This document shows positions 1,868-4,784 of a stretch of 52,689 nucleotides of DNA, one piece after another. Numbering within the stretch: position 1 is the first letter of the stretch; each line of letters begins with the position of its first letter. The notes under the pieces were generated by a model that worked only from the letters and a program-made list of their open reading frames with translations, had not been told where the DNA came from and ran no database searches. This DNA comes from Oscillospiraceae bacterium (GTDB lineage Bacteria > Bacillota > Clostridia > Oscillospirales > CAG-272): NCBI GenBank assembly GCA_015064085.1, contig SVSX01000008.1, positions 1 to 52,689 of the forward strand. Reading direction: 5' to 3'. Both the position numbers and the translations under genes were made by a program.

Positions 1868-2518
1868 ATGAGTCAGCAAAAAACAAAAATAATAGTGGGA
1901 ATTGCGAGCATTGTGGCGGCGGTTTTGTTCGTTGTACTGCTTGTTGTCGGTATAGTTTACGATGGTAGAACACTTTCCAAGGTGTTACTTATAGTTATTT
2001 CGGTTCTGGTCCTTGCACTTGCGGCAGAGCTTGCGTATCTTTTCTTCCTTTTCGAGGAATCAAAGCCCAACTACTTTTTGTTCAATCCTCAAACTAACCG
2101 TAATATGTCTGTTCAAAAGCTCACCTTTCAGACTATAAACGTTAAGATGAACAGATATCTTGCTCAGTTTGCCTCCTCGGAGGGCAAGATCTGGACAGAG
2201 AGAGTTCTCGACAATCCCTACCTTGATATGGACGAAAATTACAAGCCTCTTGTGGCATACAAGCTGCTCTTTGATCTCGCTGAACGTGATTTTGACGCGG
2301 GTTGGAAGTGCTTTGACCTTGCTTCTGACGAAACAGTTTCCTTTATTGCTTCTGCTATTGAGGCGAATGGTGACAAGGATATGGCAAAGACCCTTGTTCA
2401 GCTTAAGTCCTCAAAGCCCACAAATATGAAACACGTGAGAGATTATCTTGTCGGCAACAGAAAGTATCTTCAGAGCAAGATCTTCAGATATACCGTGGAT
2501 AATATAAATAAGTTTTGA
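1868..2518 (+). CDS. Hypothetical membrane protein: two N-terminal TM helices plus cytosolic domain
   Basis: Start at MSQQKTK with ataggag SD; two hydrophobic stretches then a soluble helical domain; no family recognised. Confidence 0.75.
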   Translation: MSQQKTKIIVGIASIVAAVLFVVLLVVGIVYDGRTLSKVLLIVISVLVLALAAELAYLFFLFEESKPNYFLFNPQTNRNMSVQKLTFQTINVKMNRYLAQFASSEGKIWTERVLDNPYLDMDENYKPLVAYKLLFDLAERDFDAGWKCFDLASDETVSFIASAIEANGDKDMAKTLVQLKSSKPTNMKHVRDYLVGNRKYLQSKIFRYTVDNINKF

Positions 2519-2579: not shown

Positions 2580-2608
2580 TTGAAAAAAGAGAATATTTGT
2601 GATATAAT
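2580..2608 (+). promoter_or_regulatory. Promoter TTGAAA-N17-TATAAT
   Basis: Near-consensus, 17-nt spacing, just upstream of the 2645 cassette. Confidence 0.75.
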
Positions 2609-2644: not shown

Positions 2645-3286
2645 ATGACCAGATTTATTCTTATAAGACACGGCGAGAGTGAAGCAAACAGAAACAATAT
2701 TTTTGCGGGACATCTTAACGCGGATCTGCAGAACAAGGGCGTTCGTCAGGCGGAGCTCACAGCAAAATATATCGTAGATAATTATAAAGTTGACAGAGTT
2801 TACGCAAGTGACCTGATCCGCGCATTCAAAACGGGAAAGTGCGTAGCAGATCTTCTCGGAATTGAGGTAATACCTAACAAGGGGCTTCGTGAGATCGAGG
2901 CAGGTGTGTGGGACGGACTCAGATTTGACGAGCTTCCGTATAAGTATCCGAAGGAGTTCGATATCTGGATAAACGACATCGGAAACTCATATTGCCCGGG
3001 CGGAGAGCGCGTTGCGCAGGTTGCGGAGAGATTCATAGGTACTCTTAGGGATATAGCATCCGAGAATGACGGAAAGACAGTGGTTATCGCCACTCACGCA
3101 ACACCGATAAGAACGCTGCAGACATTTATTGAATACGGAGATCTTGCGAAAATGCAGATCGTTCCGTGGGTGTCAAACGCTTCTGTAACCGTTGTCGAAT
3201 ACGAGGACGGACAGTGGAAATGTACCCTTTTAAGCTATGACGAGCATCTTGGTGAGCTGAGGACCGTTCTTCCCGCCAGGATATAG
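2645..3286 (+). CDS. Histidine phosphatase family protein (phosphoglycerate mutase-like)
   Basis: LIRHGESEAN N-terminal RHG motif, VIATHATPIRTL second His motif. Confidence 0.9.
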   Translation: MTRFILIRHGESEANRNNIFAGHLNADLQNKGVRQAELTAKYIVDNYKVDRVYASDLIRAFKTGKCVADLLGIEVIPNKGLREIEAGVWDGLRFDELPYKYPKEFDIWINDIGNSYCPGGERVAQVAERFIGTLRDIASENDGKTVVIATHATPIRTLQTFIEYGDLAKMQIVPWVSNASVTVVEYEDGQWKCTLLSYDEHLGELRTVLPARI

Positions 3287-3293
3287 GAGGAAT

Positions 3294-4007
3294 ATGTTTT
3301 TTATAAGGATCGCTGAGCTTAACGTAATGATAAAGAACCGATACGGATACGTTGAGCGGCTTTGCAAAAATTATATGATCGACGGTTGCTCGGAGGAGGA
3401 TGCCGATATCATTGCCTTCGCTACAGATGAGCAGATCGACGCCGAGCTTGAGATAGCCGAAACAAAGGCAAGTCGCGCTTATGCAGAGGGTATTTGTATT
3501 TACAGAAATCTTTGCCGTGAGCTGCCCAAAAAATTTGACGCGTATCTTTTTCACAGCGCACTTATCGAATACGAGGGCAGAGGATATGCCTTTGCGGCAC
3601 AGAGCGGAACGGGAAAATCCACCCATATCGCTATTTGGCAGAAGGTGTTCGGTGATCGGGTAAGGATAATCAACGGAGACAAGCCTATCTTCAGATATAA
3701 GGACGGAAGATTTATTGCCTACGGAACACCTTGGTGCGGAAAAGAAAATTATAACGTTAACGATTCTGTTGAGCTCTCGGCTATTTGCTTTCTCGAGAGG
3801 GCAAAAGAGAACTCAATTAAGAGAATATCGCCTCAGGACGCGCTGATGCGCCTCTTTCATCAGCTTCTCGCACCCGAGGATCTTGAAACGGTCGACACGC
3901 TTTTTCCGCTTCTTGATAAGACCCTCACCTCTGTTCCTTGCTATCTGCTTGGCTGTAATATGGATGATGAGGCGGCAACCGTTGCCTATAACGGAATGAA
4001 AAACTGA
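3294..4007 (+). CDS. HprK/PEPCK-like P-loop kinase-family protein
   Basis: HSALIEYEGRGYAFAAQSGTGKSTHIAIWQ P-loop, INGDKPIF motif; strong SD ataggaggaat; 7-nt gap to upstream gene. Confidence 0.75.
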   Translation: MFFIRIAELNVMIKNRYGYVERLCKNYMIDGCSEEDADIIAFATDEQIDAELEIAETKASRAYAEGICIYRNLCRELPKKFDAYLFHSALIEYEGRGYAFAAQSGTGKSTHIAIWQKVFGDRVRIINGDKPIFRYKDGRFIAYGTPWCGKENYNVNDSVELSAICFLERAKENSIKRISPQDALMRLFHQLLAPEDLETVDTLFPLLDKTLTSVPCYLLGCNMDDEAATVAYNGMKN

Positions 4008-4009
4008 AA

Positions 4010-4285
4010 TTGGAGATAATTATGAAGATAAAAAAAGGATTTGTGGTAAGAGAGATCGCGGGACAGAGCGTTGTTGTGGCACTTGGCTCGGCAACCAAGG
4101 ATTTTAACGGAATGATCAAGCTCAACGATTCGGGCAGAGTTATCTGGGATATGCTTTCCGAGGGCAAGGCTGCCGAGGATATCGTAAAAAAGCTTATGGA
4201 GATATATGAGATCGACGAGGAGACGGTAAGGCGTGACGTTGAAAAATTTATAAATACACTGCAAGGAGCAAATATCCTTGAATAA
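4010..4285 (+). CDS. PqqD-like (RRE-fold) small protein
   Basis: GFVVREIAGQSVVVALG...LNDSGRVIWDMLSEGKAAEDIVKKLMEIYEIDEETVRRDVEKFINTLQGANIL: PqqD-type beta-hairpin plus winged-helix pattern (LN..G..IW.LL.....I...L...Y......+.DV..F+..L...G). Confidence 0.8.
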   Translation: MEIIMKIKKGFVVREIAGQSVVVALGSATKDFNGMIKLNDSGRVIWDMLSEGKAAEDIVKKLMEIYEIDEETVRRDVEKFINTLQGANILE

Positions 4286-4763
4286 CGATTTTCGATTGGA
4301 TGAGGTGATTGAGGTCATTGAGGAGATACTTTCGTCGGGCGGGGAATTTAAGTTTCAGCCCAAGGGAGTAAGTATGCGCCCTCTTATCGTCGGAGGAAGA
4401 GATTCTGTCGTGCTTAAAAGCTTTGACCCGAACACGGTCAAAAAACACGATATGCTTTTCTACCGCAGGGAAAACGGTCAGTTCGTGCTTCACAGACTTA
4501 TAAAAATAGAAAATGACGGCAGATTCACTATGTGCGGTGATAATCAGCTTAAGCTTGAGCGCCGACTTGATAGCTCATTTGTTATCGGAGTTGTTTCGGG
4601 ACTCTACCGAAAAGGAAAAAGCTATGACCTTAGTGGCGTTTCCTATAGGCTTTACAAGACTTTTTGGTGCTTTATGCCTCTGCGACACATTCTGCTTTTT
4701 CCAAGAAGGTGCTTCAGATCTCTCAAAAGAATCTTGATAAAAAGGAAAAAAACTGTTGACTAA
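4278..4763 (+). CDS. S24/S26 (signal-peptidase-like) family protein
   Basis: FQPKGVSMRPLIVGGRDSVVL...KHDMLFYRRENGQFVLHRLI...FTMCGDNQ: Ser in GVSMRP and His in VLHRL; overlaps PqqD-like gene by 8 nt. Confidence 0.75.
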   Translation: MNNDFRLDEVIEVIEEILSSGGEFKFQPKGVSMRPLIVGGRDSVVLKSFDPNTVKKHDMLFYRRENGQFVLHRLIKIENDGRFTMCGDNQLKLERRLDSSFVIGVVSGLYRKGKSYDLSGVSYRLYKTFWCFMPLRHILLFPRRCFRSLKRILIKRKKTVD

Positions 4764-4784
4764 TATTGCAGTTTATGATATAAT
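4756..4784 (+). promoter_or_regulatory. pyr operon promoter TTGACT-N17-TATAAT
   Basis: Near-exact consensus; -35 overlaps the last codons of the upstream gene; ~34 nt from predicted start site to pyrC. Confidence 0.85.

Follow-up and report, generated by a model that had tools for sequence, protein, structure and literature searches.

Gene content of the locus

The window analysed here, i.e. the whole stretch of 52,689 nucleotides of contig SVSX01000008.1 (Oscillospiraceae bacterium, assembly GCA_015064085.1), carries a tightly packed set of four genes. Three of them (the triad K-B-S) are named after the enzymes of the linear polyphosphorylated peptides (LPP), a class of RiPPs (Popov et al., Nat Commun 2026; PMC13381572). 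The genes and the features that delimit them are as follows.

1868..2518, + strand: MEMB, 216-aa protein with N-terminal membrane helices, the genus-conserved neighbour upstream of the triad
2580..2608, + strand: sigma-70-type promoter, TTGAAA-17-TATAAT, extended -10
2645..3286, + strand: histidine phosphatase superfamily protein, 213 aa (Pfam His_Phos_1, 5e-49)
3294..4007, + strand: K, LppK-like kinase, 237 aa (SGTGKST, residues 104-110; NGDKP, residues 127-131)
4022..4285, + strand: B, LppB-like PqqD/RRE protein, 87 aa (Pfam PqqD, 1.4e-18)
4278..4763, + strand: S, predicted LppS-like leader peptidase of the signal peptidase fold, 161 aa (S32, H72 and D88 invariant)
4756..4784, + strand: promoter of the downstream pyr operon, overlapping the end of the peptidase gene (unit boundary)

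The four open reading frames have the positions and spacing given in an earlier note made from this sequence alone, apart from the start of the PqqD gene. The note had placed it at TTG 4010; ATG 4022 is preceded by a ribosome-binding site and is the start in all relatives, and the gap between the kinase and PqqD genes is thus 14 nt. The promoter at 2580-2608 was found as described (11/12 matches). Promoters scoring 11-12/12 are also present ahead of the upstream gene (1802) and of the pyr operon (4756); as both start from their own promoters, the four genes probably form one transcription unit. No significant Pfam family was found for MEMB, and an Rfam search of the window gave 0 matches. In agreement with the note, none of the window's genes was recognised as encoding a radical SAM enzyme; a CX3CX2C string occurs in two open reading frames. 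Likewise, a search of the window for small open reading frames bearing the leader described below was empty, as the note had it, and a precursor hidden in the window was therefore rejected.

The triad is conserved as a unit

Among genomes of the window's genus, the conserved unit consists of the kinase, PqqD and peptidase genes in the order K-B-S. The grouping of these three genes proposed in the note thus holds across genomes, whereas its inclusion of the histidine phosphatase does not: the phosphatase gene does not adjoin the triad in any relative examined. Since only the window's copy of the locus has one, the phosphatase was rejected as a part of the system. The triad is located behind MEMB and ahead of either pyr or his genes, i.e. 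at two chromosomal sites. In G012, MEMB is followed directly by pyrC (L244, 1495-3579), and in G016, which lacks K-B-S too, by the first gene of the his block. Genomes thus have or lack the three genes together, and the empty site in L244 points to gain or loss of the triad in one piece. MEMB itself occurs in genomes without the triad and was rejected as a part or substrate of the system.

The three proteins

In LPP biosynthesis, an HprK-fold kinase acts together with an RRE that binds a YxxP motif and a SipW-like Ser/His/Asp peptidase (PMC13381572). The P-loop protein encoded at 3294-4007 matches no Pfam family, Pfam Hpr_kinase included, and its best NCBIfam matches are all far under cut-off (ScmC, 28 bits; HprK-related kinase B, 17 bits; HprK-related kinase A, 12.8 bits). 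Its AlphaFold2 model (pLDDT 93.7) retrieved PEP carboxykinase (PEPCK) and HprK/P with Foldseek. The predicted fold is that of HprK/PEPCK, and the similarity to HPr kinase is at the level of the fold only. With its P-loop SGTGKST and this fold, the protein qualifies as an HprK-like kinase comparable to LppK. The P-loop Gly and Lys, H111, N127, D129-K130-P131, G149-K150 and N173 are invariant in 29 kinase homologues.

The small protein was correctly recognised as a PqqD/RRE-like chaperone (67.4 bits with Pfam PqqD, cut-off 23.4). It matches LppB (9x8z), PbaB1 (9x90) and TbiB1 (5v1u) in the PDB; note that the match to LppB is modest (E=1.8e-4), and that to the actinobacterial lasso peptide RRE TbiB1 is better (8e-7). 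The leader is held in LppB by N33, Y60, V67, D70 and F74 (PMC13381572), which correspond in an alignment with homologues to N35, Y62, V69, D72 and F76 of the window's PqqD protein.

The reading of the protein at 4278-4763 as signal-peptidase-like was also borne out, by matches to signal peptidase I models that stay under the cut-off (28.7 bits; cut-off 51.85) and by a LexA/signal peptidase fold predicted with modest confidence (pLDDT 78.6). S32, H72 and D88 are invariant in 18 homologues. The catalytic residues of LppS are S29, H68 and D93 (PMC13381572); the Ser-His spacing is 40 in the window's peptidase (S32, H72) and 39 in LppS, whereas the His-Asp spacing is 16 as compared with 25; D88 is a candidate catalytic Asp.

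Precursor peptides are encoded elsewhere

In four relatives, all belonging to genera other than the window's, a small open reading frame is present upstream of the kinase gene in the same neighbourhood. The four products have a common N-terminus and are covered by no Pfam or NCBIfam family.

L032, 4863-4985: precursor near the triad
L057, 6491-6589: precursor near the triad
L058, 8514-8657: precursor near the triad
L059, 9353-9472: precursor near the triad

The shared leader reads [Y/F]xxPxxE[IVL]xxFxxxD[IV][IM]TxS, with a near-invariant Ser 19 residues past the Tyr, and is followed by an acidic tail. Three precursors, all on other contigs (C44/C35, C46 and C62), are encoded in the window's own genome, and relatives have up to 17. 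Those on C44 (MKKLYSTPELELVKLMAKDIMVVSDDPLKNDKSEDDIFPEE) and C46 (MSKKEYVSPELEMVVVLSKDIMSTSDPYMDDIYWGNEGDSDPASYSAW) were found with a profile built from the relatives' open reading frames; the one on C62 is a weaker match, added by a better profile. This agrees with the suggestion in the earlier note that the substrate is encoded elsewhere, and the conserved host protein that it offered as an alternative substrate is not needed. The start of the C44 precursor recurs at the end of C35, so that the contigs overlap; described from the contig ends, C35 start and C44 end overlap at one precursor gene, and the two are therefore probably joined there in the real chromosome.

Residues were counted in 77 precursors after deduplication, aligned on the anchor [YFW]xxP with its Pro at +3. 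At position 0, 71 of them have Y and 6 have F; E is found at +6 in 54/77, D at +14 in 75/77, T at +17 in 53/77 and S at +19 in 72/77. The tails are rich in D, G and E, with a mean charge of -4 and only 2 Cys in 1612 residues. The constant spacing between the conserved Ser and the Tyr predicted to bind the RRE fits the need of an RRE-docked kinase. Cleavage of the leader after +16 would make this Ser residue 3 of the core, as in LppA.

Mixed arrangements were seen as well. In a Lentisphaeria MAG, a leader-like N-terminus (AELNVVLFDNDNVVATSGC) is fused to an intein/Hint-like domain (L035, 876-1733, + strand); this fusion gene is followed by genes for a radical SAM/SPASM protein and a PqqD protein and adjoins a kinase of the same family as the window's. 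Two clusters of G048 (L056, 7402-11730; L060, 3380-7841) combine distant relatives of the kinase and PqqD genes with radical SAM and ABC transporter genes, a mixed radical SAM and kinase layout with candidate precursors of 82 and 140 aa.

Most precursor genes follow genes for large, usually secreted proteins

In genomes with the triad, 38 of 42 precursor contexts have a co-directional gene 5-38 nt upstream, whose product in 27/38 cases reads as large and has just one hydrophobic segment, at its N-terminus. Proteins of the same type are encoded by 0/252 genes around triad loci and by 32/189 other genes on the precursor contigs (p=1e-10 as compared with 27/38). The C44/C35 precursor gene of the window's own genome is located ~26 nt behind the gene for a 1307-aa secreted protein. 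By eye, the C46 precursor gene has its own promoter-like sequence ahead and a terminator-like hairpin after it, and that on C62 follows a gene whose product looks like an enzyme of the endonuclease/phosphatase type. The pairing of a precursor with a large protein is also seen in other families of the order.

Most secreted partners have no family in a Pfam scan; 28/38 partners fall in one homology group. As many of the partners are homologous, the pairing in part reflects the spread of a single two-gene unit by amplification, and the 38 cases are not all independent. A C-terminal beta-rich domain is shared by 19 partners; altogether 30 proteins with this domain were found, at least 14 of them (16 by eye) with a leader open reading frame behind their gene. 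The domain comprises ~125 aa, has no Pfam match in the partners scanned and is present in L160, L162-L164, L167, L168, L177, L178, L181-L188, L191, L192 and L195. G008 has 26 copies and G010 has 16; at E<=1e-5, the window's own genome gave none.

Leaders and triad occur together

The distribution of leader and kinase was surveyed throughout in the same 245 genomes of the order, mostly incomplete assemblies, with a threshold of E<=0.001 for the leader profile. The kinase profile matches 67/245 genomes and the leader profile 51/245; the kinase is present in 46/51 leader-positive genomes as compared with 21/194 others (Fisher p=1e-27), related genomes being counted as independent in this test and in that on genomes at least 90% complete (31/33 and 17/151, p=1e-20). 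Collapsed to genera, the figures are 34/37 and 12/90 (p=2e-17). With an earlier leader profile made from four sequences only, the kinase was found in 45/48 leader-positive genomes. Five of the 245 genomes (G098, G106, G142, G225 and G277) have a leader without a detectable kinase, among them both leader-positive genomes of genus g69, one of which is 96% complete.

Within the window's genus, the flanking MEMB gene was used to tell true absence of the triad from missing contigs. Where the locus could be judged, 13 genomes have both leader and kinase, one has the kinase only (G002), none has the leader only and seven have neither; these seven keep MEMB without the triad, and leaders occur in 0/7. 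In G007, G013, G017, G022 and G026, which are leader-positive without a kinase, the MEMB gene is missing too, and the locus is thus probably just unassembled. Two further genomes of this kind, G015 and G019, were left out of the MEMB-based sorting.

Leaders and triad might also be lineage markers without a functional link, the peptides acting in some other way with the secreted proteins encoded upstream. Both are indeed inherited by descent among relatives, and the five leader-only genomes would fit. We nevertheless regard this as improbable, since the association survives the collapse to genera, leaders are missing from 7/7 genomes of the genus with MEMB and without the triad, a precursor lies in the triad neighbourhood of four relatives, and the RRE carries residues predicted to bind a leader of the YxxP type.

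A probable LPP-type modification centre acting in trans

We consider it likely that the triad at 3294-4763 is an LPP-type RiPP modification centre, whose dispersed precursors are modified in trans. In the published pathway, the YxxP leader is bound by LppB, and LppK adds several phosphates to a core Ser; leader cutting by LppS requires LppB, and unphosphorylated precursor is poorly cut (PMC13381572). By homology, the PqqD protein would bind the YxxP motif of the short precursors encoded elsewhere, the HprK-like kinase would phosphorylate the conserved Ser 19 residues past the leader Tyr, and the signal-peptidase-like protein would next cut the leader off to release a linear phosphopeptide of acidic character. 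The binding step, the phosphorylation, the cleavage and the order of these events are taken over here from the LPP paper; the sequences themselves contribute the three proteins, the residue match between the RRE and LppB, and precursors that are dispersed, co-occur with the triad and are paired with large proteins, most of them secreted. The proposal in the earlier note of a compact peptide modification-and-processing system fits very well now that precursors are found, if the phosphatase is placed outside the conserved unit.

A locus without precursor, transporter and NTP transferase could instead be a decaying remnant, i.e. a lasso peptide or LPP cluster that has lost its cyclase, transporter and precursor. 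This is very unlikely, as all three genes of the triad are intact, their catalytic and binding residues being retained by the aligned members of the genus, as they occupy two chromosomal sites (before the pyr or before the his genes), and as genomes have or lack them, along with the precursors, as one block. A reversible switch, in which PqqD would serve as adaptor for a kinase and a phosphatase acting on HPr or some other host protein, would suit their common operon in the window and the predicted HprK fold but is hardly credible given a locus without phosphatase in all relatives examined, the poor match to HprK models and a family of peptide substrates with a fitting RRE motif.

If the triad is such a centre acting in trans, it may, more tentatively, serve a companion-peptide system of the cell surface: many large secreted proteins of these Clostridia would be co-expressed with their own peptides, one K-B-S set would phosphorylate and trim them all, and each peptide would work with its partner outside the cell, e.g. 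in its anchoring, assembly or linkage to surface polysaccharide. The triad would then provide a general modification service for the surface proteome rather than forming a dedicated natural-product cluster. One enzyme set for many scattered substrates would be unusual for a phosphopeptide pathway. RiPP discovery usually takes the precursor to adjoin its enzymes; a system of the window's type would therefore be missed or read as an orphan cassette. Our analysis would extend LPP-type chemistry to uncultured gut Clostridia and supplies a searchable leader motif, and the tie of the peptides to large secreted proteins is a testable clue to the role of LPP.

Comparison with known systems

Phosphorylated lasso peptides of the paeninodin type likewise combine an HprK-like kinase with a discrete PqqD/RRE protein and a [W/Y]xxP leader. 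However, they use a transglutaminase-like B2 peptidase, whereas the window's system has a protease of the signal peptidase type instead, and the window's RRE has the Asp of Tyr-type RREs in place of the Glu/Gln of Trp-type ones. The B2 peptidase (PF13471) was not found above cut-off in the window's genus and not at all in its own genome, and a lasso peptide cluster was rejected on this absence; among the cassette genes, none resembles a macrolactam cyclase C (Asn synthetase-like) in Pfam and NCBIfam. In the SynChlorMet (ScmC) and HPr-rel-A systems of NCBIfam, a PqqD chaperone adjoins an HprK-related protein as well, but no radical SAM partner was recognised in the window, whose kinase reaches only 28 bits with ScmC (cut-off 125) and 12.8 bits with HprK_rel_A (cut-off 200), scores on which HprK or ScmC family membership was rejected. 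The same genome also contains a SCIFF system, a PqqD-type domain and a small peptide in one genome again, which is unrelated to the triad: its radical SAM maturase is fused and its peptide Cys-rich. It is located on contig C51 (L062, 8907-10487, - strand), where a 457-aa SCIFF-type maturase, PqqD-like in its N-terminal part, and a SCIFF-like peptide of 47 aa, rich in Cys, were recognised by eye.

The closest parallels are to LPP, known from the cluster lppA-K-B-S-D-N of Paenibacillus alginolyticus (PMC13381572). Both have the gene order K-B-S, an HprK-like kinase, a discrete RRE of the YxxP-binding type, an SpI/SipW-like peptidase, and short precursors with a conserved N-terminus, a conserved Ser and a variable C-terminus, and neither gives evidence of a cyclase or B2 peptidase. 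Because LPP biosynthesis needs no more than a kinase, an RRE and a signal-peptidase-like protein (PMC13381572), the absence of radical SAM enzymes is expected. In a word search of that paper, neither orphan precursors nor secreted partners nor Clostridia came up, and our literature searches, with thin coverage of subscription journals, found no other LPP report.

The differences concern precursor location, leader and neighbours. Each LPP cluster contains 1-3 precursors (PMC13381572), whereas those of the window's system are scattered, with up to 17 in one member of the genus. The LPP leader consensus YxxPxVLxHQxIxFETxxS (PMC13381572) has the Y, the P, a hydrophobic residue at +5 and the Ser in common with the window-type leader and differs in the remainder, the conserved Ser being at +18 in LPP and at +19 here. 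The MsbA-like transporter LppD and the NTP transferase LppN are encoded in the LPP cluster and neither at the window's locus. An NTP_transf_5 gene (the LppN family) is present on contig C74 of the same genome and in 11/13 high-quality genomes with leader and kinase; in three cases examined, such genes adjoin sugar-nucleotide genes. Furthermore, LPP comes from Bacilli with capsule loci and the window's system from gut Clostridia. On account of precursor location, leader consensus and the LppD/LppN neighbours, the system is LPP-like rather than a plain member of the class, and what is new as compared with LPP as published is that its precursors are scattered and mostly paired with genes for large secreted proteins.
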